Assembly (NCBI GenBank): GCA_902196205.1
Contig: CABIKM010000052.1
Location: forward strand, 1-41,600
Reading direction: 5' to 3'
DNA from: Candidatus Methylomirabilis lanthanidiphila
GTDB taxonomy: Bacteria > Methylomirabilota > Methylomirabilia > Methylomirabilales > Methylomirabilaceae
DNA length: 41,600 nucleotides
The position numbers and the translations under genes are program-made. The notes beneath the pieces were generated by a model. That model had not been told where the DNA came from, searched no databases, and worked only from the letters and a program-made list of their open reading frames with translations. Position 1 is the stretch's first letter, and every line of letters starts with the position of its first letter. Of this stretch, positions 9,989 to 21,958 are shown one piece after another.

Positions 9989-10046
9989 CGGTACTCTACT
10001 TGATGGTGTAAAGTCCCCAATGTTACTTGACATCATTTCCGAAGCC

Positions 10047-10111
10047 GTCATTCCCGCGCAAGCGGGAATCCAGCACAGAACGACTGGATTCCGGGTCAAG
10101 CCCGGAATGAC
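10047..10111. repeat. REP-like double-hairpin repeat, copy 1
   Basis: Outer arms GTCATTCC/GGAATGAC enclose two hairpins, TTCCCGC/GCGGGAA and TTCCGGG/CCCGGAA, joined by a short linker. The same design occurs at 21898-21958 and as a half copy at 15773-15799. It belongs to a widespread type of bacterial intergenic repeat. Confidence 0.8.
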
Positions 10112-15346: not shown

Positions 15347-15697
15347 TCACACGCCGAGCAATTTGTTGTAGGTCGCTGCATCAAAACCGACGATGAGCGT
15401 ACGATCCTTCCGGAGGGTCGGGGCTCGCAGGTTCCCGCTCGGTCCCAGCAGGAGCTTCAGGAGCTGTGCCGTATCCGGCGTGTTCTTCCGCAGGTCAACG
15501 TAGATAACTTTCTGCCCTTTCGTCGCGTAGATTTCGTCCACCTCTCGGGCCAGCGCGAGCGCTTCGTTCCCCTTCAGGGTCGTTTTTTTTGCATCTACCT
15601 GCAACGCGATCTCGATACGATGTTTCGCAAGAAACTCTTGCGTCTTGACGCAGGACTTTCATCCGGGGCGGTGGTACCTCCAATCGATTCGTCCCAT
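15347..15697 (-). CDS. ArsC-family selenoprotein (in-frame TGA read as selenocysteine)
   Basis: 116 aa if the TGA at 15661-15659 (codon 13) is read as selenocysteine. The frame runs from ATG 15697, with GGAGGG (complement of 15705-15710) 7 nt upstream, through 'MGRIDWRYHRPG', then U, then 'KSCVKTQEFLAKHRIEIALQ', and on to the ArsC-like remainder ('KVIYVDLRKNTPDTAQLLKLLLG...LRAPTLRKDRTLIVGFD'). U13-x-x-C16 falls where thioredoxin-fold ArsC/Spx-type proteins carry their redox cysteine, and conserved-looking sequence continues on both sides of the TGA. A hairpin 22 nt after the TGA fits the bacterial SECIS pattern. Read without recoding, only an 85-aa piece from TTG/GTG-like starts remains, lacking the active site. 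Role: probably thiol/selenol redox chemistry; substrate unknown. Confidence 0.82.
15626..15642 (-). promoter_or_regulatory. Candidate bacterial SECIS element
   Basis: On the minus strand CGCAAG and CTTGCG form a perfect 6-bp stem with the 5-nt loop AGTTT, beginning the loop 22 nt after the TGA. A G in the first two loop positions and a 16-37 nt distance are the features known for bacterial SECIS hairpins, and both are met. A competing hairpin (TGCGTC/GACGCA) lies just before it. Confidence 0.6.
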
Positions 15698-15772
15698 CGA
15701 TATTCCCTCCGATATGCCGTTCATCGTGAATACGGACCAGTGCTTCATTGCAAAAGTTAGCGCATATAAATC

Positions 15773-15799
15773 GTCATACCGGCGCAAGCCGGTATCCAG
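15773..15799. repeat. Half copy of the REP-like repeat
   Basis: GTCATACCGG, CGCAAG, CCGGTATCCAG form one hairpin like the left half of the repeats at 10047 and 21898; the right half is missing. Confidence 0.6.
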
Positions 15800-15999: not shown

Positions 16000-16500
16000 A
16001 TGTCGATGCGTGACATCATGGTTGGCGAGTCATTGGTAGGTGATGGGAATGAGGTGGCACATATTGACCTGATGATCGGCCCCAAGAACGGCCCGGTCGG
16101 CGCCGTCTTGGCACAGCGCCTCGCTCAGCAGTCTGCGGGTCACAGCGCCCTCTTGGCGGTGGTGGCGCCGAACTTGCTGGCGAAGCCTGCGACGGTGATG
16201 TTCAACAAGGTGACGATCAAAGGGGCAAAACAGGCGGTTCAGATGTTCGGCCCCGCCCAGGCCGCTGTGGCGAAGGCCGTGGTAGATAGCGTTGCGGAAG
16301 GCGTCATCCCGGCGAAGGATGCTGAAGACCTGGCGATCGTGGTCGGCGTGTTTATTCACTGGGAGGCCGACGACAATAAAAAGATCTTTGACTTTAACTA
16401 CCAGGCGACCAAAGAGTCGATCGCGCGGGCATTGGCCGAGCAGCCCTCGATGAGTGACATCCTGGCGCAGAAGGATAAGGTCAAGCATCCCTTTGCGTAG
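16000..16500 (+). CDS. fae: Formaldehyde-activating enzyme
   Basis: 166 aa, normal for single-domain Fae. It condenses formaldehyde with tetrahydromethanopterin to methylene-H4MPT, the entry step of the H4MPT oxidation pathway. The conserved start 'VGESLVGDGNEVAHIDLMIGPK' includes the catalytic histidine (His21 here), and 'TVMFNKVTIK', 'MFGPAQAAVAKAV' and 'VFIHWEADD' are typical family blocks. A very strong ribosome site precedes the ATG at 16000 (ATG 16006 is possible). It is the first gene of the C1 cluster, driven by the promoter at 15887-15915, and separated from mtdB by a large hairpin that may let fae be expressed more strongly. Confidence 0.97.
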   Translation: MSMRDIMVGESLVGDGNEVAHIDLMIGPKNGPVGAVLAQRLAQQSAGHSALLAVVAPNLLAKPATVMFNKVTIKGAKQAVQMFGPAQAAVAKAVVDSVAEGVIPAKDAEDLAIVVGVFIHWEADDNKKIFDFNYQATKESIARALAEQPSMSDILAQKDKVKHPFA

Positions 16501-16546
16501 TTGAAACGATACGAGGCGGGCTTAACGCACACGATCATCTACATTG

Positions 16547-16603
16547 AAGGGGCTGCCGGGCGACCGTGGAGGGCCTGATGGGCCTCTTGCCCGTCGGCCC
16601 CTT
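16547..16603 (+). terminator. Hairpin between fae and mtdB (terminator or attenuator-like)
   Basis: AAGGGGC (16547-16553) pairs with GCCCCTT (16597-16603), and CGGGC (16557-16561) with GCCCG (16589-16593), enclosing a smaller GGCC hairpin. The following sequence is only moderately T-rich (TGATTTGTT), so partial termination or RNA stabilisation of fae mRNA is more likely than a full stop. Confidence 0.5.
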
Positions 16604-16630
16604 TGATTTGTTCCGTTGAGTGAGGACCTA

Positions 16631-17530
16631 ATGGCGATAGAGCGTAAGCATCTGCTGTATTTTTTGACGACGGAAAGCCAGCCGAGCCCGTTCGACATCA
16701 ACATGGCGTATGACGCGGGCTTCCACGCCGTCATTCCGTATGGTAGCGTGAACGAGGAATCGGCAGTCCTCCTGGTGCAGGATATCATCTTCTCGCGCGG
16801 GCCAAAAGGCGCCAAGTTCAGCGCGCTCTTTATCGGGGGCAACGACATCGAGTCGGCAGAACGGATCCGCCAGGCCGCCGCAAAGAGCATGTTCCCCCCC
16901 TTCCAGGTGTCGATGATGATCGATCCCAAGGGGTCGTATACGACAGCCGTGGCGCTGGTCGCCAAGGCGGAGAAGGCGCTCGGCGGATTGTGCGGCAAAC
17001 AGGTGGCCATCCCGGGTGGAACAGGCCCGGTAGGCATCGTGGCTTCGATGCTCTGCGTGAAGCTGGGGGCCGAGGTGATCATCGGTTCCAGGCAACTGAG
17101 CGGCGTACAGCAGTTGGCCGAGCGGCTGTCGGCGCAGACGGGGGGCTCCGTGAAGGGTGCTGCGATGGCGACGGATGAGGACAAGATTTCCCACCTGCGC
17201 GGCGCTGACGTGATCCTGACGACCGGCAAGGCAGGCATCCAGATGATTTCCGAAGGGGTCCTGAAAGCGCTTCCGTCCGGCAAACTTGTGGCCGACGTCA
17301 ATGCCGTTCCCCCGACCGGTATCTTCAACTTGGCGCCGAATGATGACATGAAGGAGGTCGTACCGGGTATCAAAGGAATCGGCGCGCTCGCCGTCGGGGT
17401 CTTGAAATACGATGTCGAGATTGAAATGCTTGAAACGATTCGGACCTCAGAGAAGTTTACGGTTCTCGACCAGAATCAGGCCTTGGAGATCGCCCAGAGG
17501 CGGCTGTCTATCGGGGGATCGAGGGCATAG
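16631..17530 (+). CDS. mtdB: NAD(P)-dependent methylenetetrahydromethanopterin dehydrogenase
   Basis: 299 aa from ATG 16631 (GAGGA 5 nt upstream); a TTG at 16616 is less likely. It oxidises methylene-H4MPT to methenyl-H4MPT with NAD(P)+. The Rossmann nucleotide-binding loop is visible as 'KQVAIPGGTGPVGIVASML', followed by 'GAEVIIGSRQL', and the N-terminal catalytic domain begins 'HLLYFLTTESQPSPFDINMAYDAGF'. Length and layout match MtdA/MtdB proteins; MtdB is preferred because all neighbours belong to the H4MPT branch. It follows fae and precedes the Fhc genes, so the order follows the chemistry. Confidence 0.93.
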   Translation: MAIERKHLLYFLTTESQPSPFDINMAYDAGFHAVIPYGSVNEESAVLLVQDIIFSRGPKGAKFSALFIGGNDIESAERIRQAAAKSMFPPFQVSMMIDPKGSYTTAVALVAKAEKALGGLCGKQVAIPGGTGPVGIVASMLCVKLGAEVIIGSRQLSGVQQLAERLSAQTGGSVKGAAMATDEDKISHLRGADVILTTGKAGIQMISEGVLKALPSGKLVADVNAVPPTGIFNLAPNDDMKEVVPGIKGIGALAVGVLKYDVEIEMLETIRTSEKFTVLDQNQALEIAQRRLSIGGSRA

Positions 17531-17577
17531 CGGCTTTCTTGGGTCCTGTGGTAAGATACTGTTATTAGGATAGGAGT

Positions 17578-17925
17578 GTGAATCAGGTGCCTGAGACACA
17601 GTTCATATTAATTACCGGTCGATCGACCAAACAGGGCAAGTCGCTCCATCTCGGCAAGGAAGCTGCAGAGTATCGAGAAGAGGTCTCGACCTTGCAAATG
17701 AACCTCAAGGATCTTGAAGCCTTAGGGTTGCAGGATGGGGGTCAGGCGCAGGTCAAATCCAACTACGGTTCGATCGTTGTTAAATTGAAAAAAACCGATA
17801 TCCCGCAGGGGATCGTCTTTATTCCTTACGGAGAATTGAGCAATGTCCTGATCGGTCCCGATACCCAGGCGACAGGGATGCCCGATTCAAAAGGGATCAC
17901 GGTGGAGGTCGAGCGTCATGGCTGA
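17578..17925 (+). CDS. Formylmethanofuran dehydrogenase subunit D-like protein
   Basis: 115 aa from GTG 17578; GTG 17587 is equally possible given AGGATAGGAG at 17567-17576. The protein resembles FwdD/FmdD, the small molybdopterin-dinucleotide-binding domain of archaeal formylmethanofuran dehydrogenase: 'FILITGRSTKQGKSLH' at the start, a central beta-barrel segment ('GLQDGGQAQVKSNYGSIVVKL'), and the characteristic close 'FIPYGELSNVLIG..TQATGMPDSKGITVEVE'. Its end overlaps fhcB by 8 bp, so the two are translationally coupled and probably one functional unit. In the Fhc complex of model aerobic methylotrophs I recall no such subunit, which makes its presence notable. Confidence 0.8.
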   Translation: MNQVPETQFILITGRSTKQGKSLHLGKEAAEYREEVSTLQMNLKDLEALGLQDGGQAQVKSNYGSIVVKLKKTDIPQGIVFIPYGELSNVLIGPDTQATGMPDSKGITVEVERHG

Positions 17926-19273
17926 GAGCGTTGCCGTAAAAGAACCGACTACAAAAGAACCGTATGTGATGACGGGCGTCGTCTGCCCCTATTGCGGCGT
18001 GACCTGCGACGATCTTGAGGTCCGGGTCGAGAACGGAAAGATCACAGAGGTCAAAAACGCCTGCGTCCTGGGGAAGGACACCTTCCTTCATCACCTGGAG
18101 GGATTGTCGACCCCGCGGCTGTACGGCAAACCGGCGACGGTCGACGAGTGTATCGACGCGGCGGCAGAGATTCTTGCCAAGGCCAAGTACCCCCTCATCT
18201 ATGGACTCGACTCCACGGAGCTGGGCGCGCAGCGGGCGTCGATCGAGTTGGCCGATCTGATCGGCGCCAATATCGATCATACCTCCTCGGTCTGTCACGC
18301 GCCGAGCTATCAGGCGGTGATGACCGTCGGCATCCCGACCGTGACGTCCGGAGAAACGAAGAACCGGGCCGATCTGGTGATCTTCTGGGGATGTAATCCG
18401 GCCGAAGCGCACCCACGGCACGCCACTCGATACTCGGTGACCGTAAAGGGGATGTTTACCCCCAGGGGCAAGAAGGACCGGATGGTTATTCATGTCGATG
18501 TCAGGCCGACGCCGACCACGCGAATCGCCGACGCCTTCATCCAGATGAAACCGAACTCCGATTACGAGGTCATCTCTGCGCTCAGGGCGCTCGTGAAGGG
18601 CCACGAACTGCCACAGGCCGAGGTTGGAGGCATACCGGTCGATGAGCTGAAGGCCCTGGTAGAAAAGATGAAGAGCGCCAAGTTTGGGATCGTCTATTGG
18701 GGAATGGGCCTGACCCAGACCAGGGGAAAATATCTGAATCTCGTCGCGCTGCTCAAGCTGGCTCAGGATCTGAATCAGTTCACAAAATTTTCGTGCGCCG
18801 CGATGAGGGGTCACGGCAATGTGGTGGGCATGGCCCAGGTATTGACATGGCAAACCGGCTTTCCCTTCCACGTCAATATGAGTCGCGGCTATCCTCGATT
18901 CAACCCCGGAGAATTTTCGGTGGTCGATATGCTGGCCCGCAAAGAGATCGATGCCGCGCTGGTGATTGCCGGCGACGCCATCGGGAACTTTCCCGGGAGC
19001 ATGGCAGAGCATCTGAAAACGATTCCGCTGATTGCCATCGATCCCAAAGAGAGCGATACGACCAGGGTGGCCGACATTGTGATTCCGTCGGCGCAGGGTG
19101 CCATCGGCGCCGGGGGAATGGCGTACAGGATGGACCACATCCCCCTGATGTTCAAAAAGGTGGTTGAGTCACCCTACCCCTCGGATCGGGAGATCCTCGA
19201 CCGTATCATCGCGAAGGTGAAGGCGATGAAGAGTCGCGGCGCTGGCGCTCCCGCCCCGGCTGGTAGAGGCTGA
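17918..19273 (+). CDS. fhcB: Formylmethanofuran dehydrogenase/Fhc complex subunit B
   Basis: 451 aa. The N-terminus keeps a complete iron-sulfur-type motif, Cys23-x2-Cys26-x3-Cys30 ... Cys49 ('CPYCGVTC', 'NACVLG'), and 'SVCHAPSYQA' places Cys126 where archaeal FwdB has its Mo/W-ligating Cys or Sec. The body is a molybdopterin oxidoreductase fold ('ADLVIFWGCNPAEAHPRH', 'AALVIAGDAIGNFPGSM', 'TRVADIVIPSAQGAIGAGGMAYRMD'). In the cofactor-free Fhc complexes of model methylotrophs, FhcB is recalled as a shortened remnant; this one looks redox-competent. It overlaps the subunit-D-like gene and is followed 11 bp later by fhcA. The C-terminal tail is rich in Ala/Pro/Gly. Confidence 0.92.
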   Translation: MAESVAVKEPTTKEPYVMTGVVCPYCGVTCDDLEVRVENGKITEVKNACVLGKDTFLHHLEGLSTPRLYGKPATVDECIDAAAEILAKAKYPLIYGLDSTELGAQRASIELADLIGANIDHTSSVCHAPSYQAVMTVGIPTVTSGETKNRADLVIFWGCNPAEAHPRHATRYSVTVKGMFTPRGKKDRMVIHVDVRPTPTTRIADAFIQMKPNSDYEVISALRALVKGHELPQAEVGGIPVDELKALVEKMKSAKFGIVYWGMGLTQTRGKYLNLVALLKLAQDLNQFTKFSCAAMRGHGNVVGMAQVLTWQTGFPFHVNMSRGYPRFNPGEFSVVDMLARKEIDAALVIAGDAIGNFPGSMAEHLKTIPLIAIDPKESDTTRVADIVIPSAQGAIGAGGMAYRMDHIPLMFKKVVESPYPSDREILDRIIAKVKAMKSRGAGAPAPAGRG

Positions 19274-19284
19274 GGATAATAGAC

Positions 19285-20925
19285 ATGGGACGCTCATTCA
19301 GAATTGTCGGCGGTGAGGTCTATGATCCGGCCAACGGGATCAATGGGACGATCAAAGAGATCTGTGTTGAGAATGGAAAGATTGTAGAGTCCTGTAGCGG
19401 GCCCGCGGAGGTCATCGACGCGAGCAACTTGGTCGTCATGCCGGGCGGGGTCGATATTCATACCCATATCGGCAGTCCGGCGGTCAATGCGGCTCGAGGG
19501 TTCAGGCCGGAGGATCACCGGCACATGCACTTCAGCAGCAAGCCCGGTCTCAGGTCCGGCGTCGGCGCTACGGTTCCTTCCACCTTTGCGACCGGCTACC
19601 TCTACGCCCAGATGGGCTATACCACGGTGATGGAGGGCGCCAACGCACCTATCGGCGTTCGGCATACCCATGAGGAGCTCATCGACATCCCGATCGTCGA
19701 TAAGGGACTGTATATCGAGTTGGGCAGCAATGAGTTTATCCTGAAGTTCATCAAGGCGGGCGAGATGGACAAGGCCAAGCGATATGTCGCCTGGCTTCTG
19801 CGGTCGTTGAAGGCGTACGGCATCAAGCTGGTCAACCCCGGCGGGGTCGAGCAGTGGAAGTACGGCAAGGATGTCGACAGTCTGGACGACAAGGTCCACT
19901 ACTTCGACGTCACGCCGCGCCAGATCCTGAAGACGCTCTCCTGGATCAACGAAAGTCTCGGCCTGCCCCACTCGATCCACCTGCACGCTAATCGCCTGGG
20001 CACGCCCAACAACTACCTGACGACGTTGGACACGATGCGGACGCTGGAGGGTTCCAGGCTTCATGTGGCGCACGCCCAGTTCCACAGCTACGGCGGAGAA
20101 AACTGGGGCGGTTTCTGCTCAAAGGCGTCTGAGATCGCGGAGTACATCAATACCCATCCCAACATCACGACCGATATTGGCCAGATCGTCTTCGGCGACG
20201 CCACCACCATTACGGCGGACGGCCCGTGGCAGTACCGGCTGTACAAGCTCAGCAAGAATAAATGGTACAACCAGGACGTAGAGGTCGAGACGGGATGCGG
20301 GATCGTCCCCTATACCTATCGCGAGAACAACTTTGTGAACGCCCTGCAATGGGCCATCGGGCTGGAGTTGTTCCTCCTGATCCGCGATCCGTGGCGGGTG
20401 TTCCTGTCCACCGACCATCCGAACGGCGGCCCCTTCTACCTCTATCCCTGGATCATCAGGCTGCTGATGGATAAACCGTTCCGAGATGAGATGCTCAAGC
20501 GCGTTCATAAGCGCGTGGCGTCGGAGACGATCCTGTCGAGCCTCGACCGCGAGTATACCCTGTCGGAGATCGCCATCATCTCCAGGGCGGGACCCGCGAG
20601 GGCGTTGGGACTCCATCACAAGGGCCACCTGGGGGTCGGGGCGGACGCCGATATCACCATCTACGCCAAGGACAGCGATCGCGAACAGATGTTCGAGCAT
20701 CCTGTTTATACTATCAAAAGCGGCGAGACGGTGCTGCGGGACGGCGAGATCGTTGCCAGTCCAGACGGGAAGACCCTGTTTGTGATCCCGCCGGATGTCG
20801 GCGAGATGGACCCCAGCTTCAAGACCGAATTCGAAAACTTCTACACGATCCGGTATCAGAATTTTCCGATCGATATCGAGGACATCCCTCACCGGGAGGC
20901 GATTCCGGTGGGAGCGCCTCGATGA
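19285..20925 (+). CDS. fhcA: Formylmethanofuran dehydrogenase/Fhc complex subunit A (amidohydrolase)
   Basis: 546 aa, the full length of FwdA/FhcA. An amidohydrolase that hydrolyses formyl-methanofuran(-like) to formate and the carrier. Metal-site features are visible: His59 and His61 in 'VDIHTHIGS', a probable carboxylated Lys near residue 181 in 'GIKLVNPGG', further histidines in 'SIHLHANRLG' and 'VAHAQFHSYG', and Asp377 in 'STDHPNGG'. The intact set argues for an active hydrolase. The ATG at 19285 lies 11 bp after fhcB; fhcD follows after 27 bp. Confidence 0.95.
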   Translation: MGRSFRIVGGEVYDPANGINGTIKEICVENGKIVESCSGPAEVIDASNLVVMPGGVDIHTHIGSPAVNAARGFRPEDHRHMHFSSKPGLRSGVGATVPSTFATGYLYAQMGYTTVMEGANAPIGVRHTHEELIDIPIVDKGLYIELGSNEFILKFIKAGEMDKAKRYVAWLLRSLKAYGIKLVNPGGVEQWKYGKDVDSLDDKVHYFDVTPRQILKTLSWINESLGLPHSIHLHANRLGTPNNYLTTLDTMRTLEGSRLHVAHAQFHSYGGENWGGFCSKASEIAEYINTHPNITTDIGQIVFGDATTITADGPWQYRLYKLSKNKWYNQDVEVETGCGIVPYTYRENNFVNALQWAIGLELFLLIRDPWRVFLSTDHPNGGPFYLYPWIIRLLMDKPFRDEMLKRVHKRVASETILSSLDREYTLSEIAIISRAGPARALGLHHKGHLGVGADADITIYAKDSDREQMFEHPVYTIKSGETVLRDGEIVASPDGKTLFVIPPDVGEMDPSFKTEFENFYTIRYQNFPIDIEDIPHREAIPVGAPR

Positions 20926-20952
20926 TACGGTTGTTGGTCTGACGGAGACGCG

Positions 20953-21867
20953 ATGGAGATTAACGGCGTTTGCATTGACGAGACCTATGCAGAGGCATTC
21001 GGCATGTATGCCAGTCGGGTGCTGATTACCGCGTGCAGTAAGGCGTGGGCGCTGGAGGCGGCGCGCAGCATGGCCGGGTACGGTACCTCGGTCATCGGCT
21101 GCGGTTGCGAGGTGGCGATTGAGGGGACCGAACCGGCGGAGACGCCGGACGATCGCCCCGGTGTGAGTGTGATGTTGTTCGCCCTGTCGAAAAAGGGGGT
21201 ACAGGAACAACTCATCAACCGAATCGGCCAGTGTGTGATGACCTCTCCGACCTCGGCCTGTTACAACGAGCTGGAGGCGGAAGACCGGTTGTCCATCGGG
21301 GGCAAGCTCAAATTTTTCGGCGATGGATTTCAGATCAGCAAGCGCTTCGACGCACAACTGACCGGCAACGGCGGCGGCCCCCGGCGTGTCTGGCGAATCC
21401 CGGTGATGGACGGCGAGTTCATTGTGGAAGACCGGTTCGGTGTGCAGAAGGGTGTGGGCGGCGGCAACTTCCTGCTGTTGGGGCGCGAGCTGCCTGCGAC
21501 CCTGCAGGCCGCGGAGCGGGCGATAGAGGCGATGCGGAAGGTGCCGGGCGTCATCATGCCCTTTCCGGGCGGCGTTGTCAGATCCGGCAGCAAGGTCGGC
21601 TCGCGCTACAAGTTCCTCAACGCCTCCAGCAACACGGCCTTCTGTCCCTCGCTGCGAGGGGCGGTGAAGAGCGAACTGCCGGAAGGAGTCGGGGCGGTGC
21701 TCGAAGTCGTCATCGACGGCCTGACGCCGGAAGCGGTAGGCGAGGCGATGCGGGTCGGCATCCTGGCCGCGTGCGGTCCCGGCGTCATCAAGATTTCCGC
21801 CGGGAACTACGGCGGGAAGTTGGGCAAACATCACTTTCACCTCCATCAACTGTTGGCTGAGCGCTGA
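20953..21867 (+). CDS. fhcD: Formylmethanofuran:tetrahydromethanopterin formyltransferase
   Basis: 304 aa, the usual length for Ftr/FhcD. It moves the formyl group from formyl-H4MPT to methanofuran or its bacterial analogue. The conserved start 'INGVCIDETYAEAFGMYASRVLITA', the 'GYGTSVIGCGCEVAIEG' block, 'TPTSACYNEL'-type segment (here 'SPTSACYNELEAEDRL') and the C-terminal 'KISAGNYGGKLGKHHFHLH' are typical. GACGGAG precedes the ATG at 20953. In this cluster the gene stands between fhcA and fhcC, separated from the latter by a REP-like repeat. Confidence 0.95.
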   Translation: MEINGVCIDETYAEAFGMYASRVLITACSKAWALEAARSMAGYGTSVIGCGCEVAIEGTEPAETPDDRPGVSVMLFALSKKGVQEQLINRIGQCVMTSPTSACYNELEAEDRLSIGGKLKFFGDGFQISKRFDAQLTGNGGGPRRVWRIPVMDGEFIVEDRFGVQKGVGGGNFLLLGRELPATLQAAERAIEAMRKVPGVIMPFPGGVVRSGSKVGSRYKFLNASSNTAFCPSLRGAVKSELPEGVGAVLEVVIDGLTPEAVGEAMRVGILAACGPGVIKISAGNYGGKLGKHHFHLHQLLAER

Positions 21868-21897
21868 TATCCTGCATTATTGGTCGCACGAGTGGAC

Positions 21898-21958
21898 GTC
21901 ATTCCCGCGAAAGCGGGAATCCAGAAGACGCTGGATTCCGGATCAAGTCCGGAATGAC
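21898..21958. repeat. REP-like double-hairpin repeat, copy 2
   Basis: GTCATTCC...GGAATGAC outer arms enclose TTCCCGC/GCGGGAA and TTCCGG/CCGGAA hairpins, the same plan as 10047-10111. It sits within the fhc gene run, between fhcD and fhcC. Confidence 0.8.

Follow-up and report, generated by a model that had tools for sequence, protein, structure and literature searches.

In the 41,600-nucleotide stretch of DNA analysed here (the window), a minus-strand gene almost certainly encodes a selenoprotein of the UxxC type whose thioredoxin fold is of the ArsC/Spx kind. The joint explanation, which we hold to be highly probable, is a 116-aa selenoprotein of the ArsC/Spx thioredoxin fold, whose SECIS-directed Sec13 would make it a selenol/thiol oxidoreductase. 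Comparative evidence shows that the UGA is recoded; catalysis and substrate we infer. The selenoprotein interpretation had been put forward in the initial annotation of this DNA and is supported both by the comparison of codon 13 among homologues and by the Sec genes of the genome; what the annotation lacked was the qualification that this selenoprotein family is already recognised and has an NCBI model of its own. The frame that it had described, with ATG at 15697, GGAGGG and TGA at codon 13, is found in the sequence in every element (Table 1). Translated with TGA as U, the readthrough product reads MGRIDWRYHRPGUKSCVKTQEFLAKHRIEIALQVDAKKTTLKGNEALALAREVDEIYATKGQKVIYVDLRKNTPDTAQLLKLLLGPSGNLRAPTLRKDRTLIVGFDAATYNKLLGV.

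Table 1. Features of the selenoprotein gene, in window coordinates
Feature	Position	Strand	Basis and remarks
Selenoprotein gene	15347..15697	minus	TGA=U translation; 116 aa, UxxC, ArsC-like, NCBIfam NF041106
In-frame TGA, codon 13 = selenocysteine, first residue of U-K-S-C	15659..15661	minus	Homologue comparison
Codon 16 = Cys, presumed resolving cysteine of UxxC	15650..15652	minus	Homologue alignment
Shine-Dalgarno GGAGGG	15705..15710	minus	Sequence; 7 nt spacer to ATG 15697
Bacterial SECIS hairpin CGCAAGA-GTT-TCTTGCG	15626..15642	minus	+17 to +33 after UGA; G +24 = 15635

A mechanical ORF caller returned two pieces, an 85-aa ORF starting with TTG (15347-15604) and an 82-aa upstream ORF ending at the TGA. 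The former is without the U-x-x-C site, exactly the remnant deprived of its active site that had been predicted for the case without recoding. The accompanying claim that standard calling would truncate the gene holds for simple callers, which split it, but not for annotation pipelines using NF041106, which are able to call it and make the gene unsurprising. The gene thus illustrates how a simple gene caller may lose an active site.

Codon 13 was read in 110 loci, comprising 80 from a genome collection, 29 from genomes of the same phylum and the window's own. It was TGA in 100 loci and a Cys codon in the other 10, across several phyla, so that the check proposed in the initial annotation, Cys or Sec in homologues exactly at this codon, came out as expected. 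The search pattern for the 30 phylum loci admitted TGA or Cys only; in the unbiased set of 80 loci the codon was likewise either TGA or Cys and nothing else. The closest relatives are Methylomirabilota loci with 80-86% identity, which suggests that the window derives from this phylum, and the TGA is also present in near relatives recovered with the gene, which makes a base-call error very unlikely. In an alignment of 38 sequences, residue conservation flanks codon 13 on either side, with W6, Y8, R10, R91 and P93 invariant and C16 present in 37 sequences (S in one). Because some congeneric genomes that are nearly complete (G021, G031) lack the gene, it is not essential to the group.

The hairpin has a stem of either 6 bp (CGCAAG-AGTTT-CTTGCG) or, if A23 pairs with U27, of 7 bp with a GTT loop, and a minimum free energy (MFE) of -8.5 kcal/mol according to MFE folding. 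The published rules for bacterial SECIS elements (PMC13188914) specify a loop of 3-9 nt, a stem of 4-16 bp, G in loop position 1 or 2, a spacing of 16-37 nt and an MFE of -7.5 or lower, and the window hairpin agrees with them either as a 7-bp stem with a GUU loop at +24 or as a 6-bp stem with AGUUU at +23. The 6 bp and the fit to the SECIS rules had been recognised correctly in the initial annotation, but the start had not: the 5' arm begins at the 17th nucleotide, and 22-23 nt is the distance from the TGA to the apical loop. Taken alone, such a hairpin is within chance: of 185 TGA frames that qualify mechanically in the window, 23 have one at -6 kcal/mol or better. The hairpin of a lone sequence is not significant, hence the case for a SECIS rests on comparison. 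The 23 candidates for TGA-recoded frames with a SECIS in the window include the selenoprotein gene; the rest were unconvincing when judged by eye.

All 100 TGA loci have a hairpin whose loop lies at +23 or +24, and the G at +24 is invariant among 90 distinct TGA sequences, whereas the hairpin is kept in none of the 10 Cys loci. This conservation with TGA and absence with Cys lies far beyond chance. TGA and Cys homologues provide a clean natural test of the SECIS. Relative to synonymous recodings, the local folding-energy z averaged -2.1 in 79 non-redundant Sec loci as compared with +0.3 in the 10 Cys loci (Mann-Whitney p = 2.5e-6); segments farther downstream in the Sec loci had z near 0, with no excess stability. 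Two-sided pair changes were observed at three of the seven stem pairs, counts that include relatedness between sequences. At pair +23/+27, the swap between A-U and G-C couples an E->G replacement (GAG->GGG) to a change of codon from TTT to TTC, and the combination G-T was found in 0 of the 90 sequences, a count likewise including relatedness. In a sliding control, the proposed register scored best for cells paired, while a slide of -2 gave a similar covariation score.

The Sec machinery, whose presence had been inferred in the initial annotation with a genome search as the proposed check, was found in full: SelA (604 bits), SelB (377), SelD (406) and tRNA-Sec (65.9) all scored over their cut-offs, and ARAGORN identified in the same genome a tRNA-SeC with anticodon tca. 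The SelD gene of this genome (L089, G000:C30:70642-71568) contains a UGA (HGAGUACK) at the site that carries Sec in other SelD proteins, and this SelD is probably itself a selenoprotein. Among the genomes sampled, SelB was over cut-off in 14/14 with the Sec form versus 6/10 with the Cys form (Fisher p = 0.02), and the four without SelB over cut-off all have the Cys form. Of the 35 Methylomirabilota genomes that carry the TGA form, three gave no SelB over cut-off: G004 is 76% complete, G046 has a fragment at a contig end, and in G060, which is 95% complete, an assembly gap is perhaps the reason.

These observations bear on two readings in which no selenocysteine is made. If the TGA were a true stop or a pseudogene lesion, the product would be only the 82-aa or the 85-aa piece, or none, as the two separate pieces from ORF calling would have it, and isolated SECIS-like hairpins are indeed common by chance. 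The same TGA nevertheless recurs in 100 loci of several phyla with protein conservation on either side, the SECIS pairing is conserved and Cys is the sole alternative to TGA; we regard such a stop as extremely unlikely. Alternatively, the TGA might be read as another amino acid by a suppressor tRNA or under a variant code (e.g. TGA=Trp), since readthrough by itself does not reveal which residue is inserted. Against this, homologues that do not have TGA at the codon invariably encode Cys there and in no case Trp or another residue, a SECIS is present together with the complete Sec machinery, and the gene itself terminates normally at a TGA (15349-15347, minus strand). The probability left to this reading is close to negligible.

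As to the family, the readthrough protein scored 138.6 bits on the NCBIfam model NF041106 "ArsC family (seleno)protein" (cut-off 85) over the entire profile (1-107/107), and the Sec (or Cys) that this model requires in UxxC corresponds to U13-K-S-C16. It was the genome's one match to this model, lies over the cut-off and contains exactly one internal TGA. The readthrough protein also exceeded the gathering score of 24 for Pfam ArsC (PF03960) with 26.1 bits, and the 85-aa piece, with only 18.1 bits, fell under it. A PF03960 search of the genome gave no match at E 0.001, probably because of a short profile and a weak match; the specific model NF041106 did find the gene. A recent review (2026, PMC13188914) lists NF041106 as ArsC_rel_Se_1, "Arsenate reductase-like protein", a UxxC selenoprotein family that it credits to the 2008 GOS selenoproteome (PMC2398784), and describes a MAG from Methylomirabilota for which 63 selenoprotein genes are predicted. 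The entry "Arsenate reductase 2, UxxC" of the GOS survey (PMC2398784) is likely to be this family. The window protein shares with it the full-length profile, the UxxC, the UGA position and the bacterial SECIS, with no substantial difference other than the species. Since the family is already catalogued, the gene is correct but ordinary, a further member that opens no new category of biology. An ArsC selenoprotein with UxxS, credited to the Sargasso Sea survey, is also listed (PMC9312934, PMC13188914); both belong to the ArsC superfamily and carry Sec in the nucleophile position, but the window protein has UxxC and was not matched by TIGR00014, the arsC equivalog model.

In the favoured explanation, UGA codon 13 is decoded as Sec by SelB and tRNA-Sec under the direction of the SECIS within the coding sequence, starting at the 17th nucleotide after the UGA. 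The selenol of Sec13 would probably attack an oxidised substrate and Cys16 would resolve the intermediate, comparable to the CxxC chemistry of glutaredoxin/thioredoxin, the protein acting as a selenol/thiol oxidoreductase for some disulfide or oxyanion. A true glutaredoxin-dependent arsenate reductase (ArsC), using Sec to reduce arsenate, would be consistent with the Pfam ArsC match and with two basic positions, R91 (invariant) and K/R60 (conserved), whose counterparts in the Spx alignment are arginines. In ArsC, catalytic arginines lie in these two regions. On the other hand, TIGR00014 does not figure in the list of nine matches with E up to 10, the nearest structures are Spx rather than ArsC, the site is UxxC and not of the CxxS type, and no arsenic resistance gene was recognised in the neighbourhood, itself conserved in close relatives only. 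This function is very unlikely, and "arsenate reductase" is a family label only.

Another conceivable role is that of a redox sensor resembling Spx, but based on selenium, that regulates RNA polymerase. The confident AlphaFold2 model (pLDDT 94) retrieved Spx and ArsC-related proteins as top structures in Foldseek, at TM-scores near 0.55, and Spx (B. subtilis, PDB 1z3e, 6ghb), the best PDB match by sequence and by fold, has a thioredoxin-like core with its CxxC redox pair in the place of the UxxC. Spx, however, has Cys instead of Sec, the identity is about 20% and the TM-score only about 0.55, and the window protein reaches 36.3 bits on the Spx/MgsR model TIGR01617, under the cut-off of 75.05; we consider a regulator of this kind quite improbable. 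A further reading, less likely than not, is that the protein is no arsenate reductase; it would instead be a redox switch or an enzyme dependent on Sec, whose dedicated substrate has yet to be described and is common to Methylomirabilota, Acidobacteria, Planctomycetota and Gemmatimonadota.

The conserved neighbours, named by eye, are a lytic transglycosylase, a ZIP-like transporter and a formaldehyde-activating-like protein; they are kept in close relatives only, so that no operon-based hint at function emerges. No relative was found in the viral contigs searched. A REP-like dispersed palindrome, TGGATNCCNGCNNNCGCNGGNATGACG, lies at 10046-10072, 15772-15798 and 21897-21923 (minus), one copy being directly upstream of the selenoprotein gene; its pattern has 32 exact matches in the genome and the reversed control 0. 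The region 16000-21867 contains a cluster named by eye as formaldehyde-activating enzyme-, methylene-H4MPT dehydrogenase- and formylmethanofuran dehydrogenase/formyltransferase-like. Its FmdB-like gene (17918-19273, also named by eye) is an open frame with no UGA; Sec forms are known from other organisms (PMC4807772).

Other UGA-containing genes came to light in Methylomirabilota. A sister set (L129-L138, L140-L146) of genes of about 115 aa, with a motif close to LYNxxGUPTCxxAREFLS, occurs in many genomes of the phylum, each gene with a bSECIS-like hairpin whose loop is at +23/+24. The set matches NF041106 only under its cut-off; the three members scanned scored 48-58 bits on this model and reached the cut-off of no other NCBIfam model either, and the NF041106 search found no match to this set in the window's own genome. 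The set may represent an uncatalogued selenoprotein family, and may be a more interesting lead than the window gene. Two further UGA-containing genes (L139, L147) are Spx/MgsR-like (FYQKPTUTSC) and have a hairpin whose loop lies at +24; L139 scored 89.7 on TIGR01617, above cut-off, and is probably the Sec form of a protein related to Spx/ArsC.

For the biology of the organism, these results point to active decoding of selenocysteine in this Methylomirabilis-like bacterium. Within the family, the SECIS restricts the encoded Q-E/G-F-L-A residues, together with their codons, across phyla.
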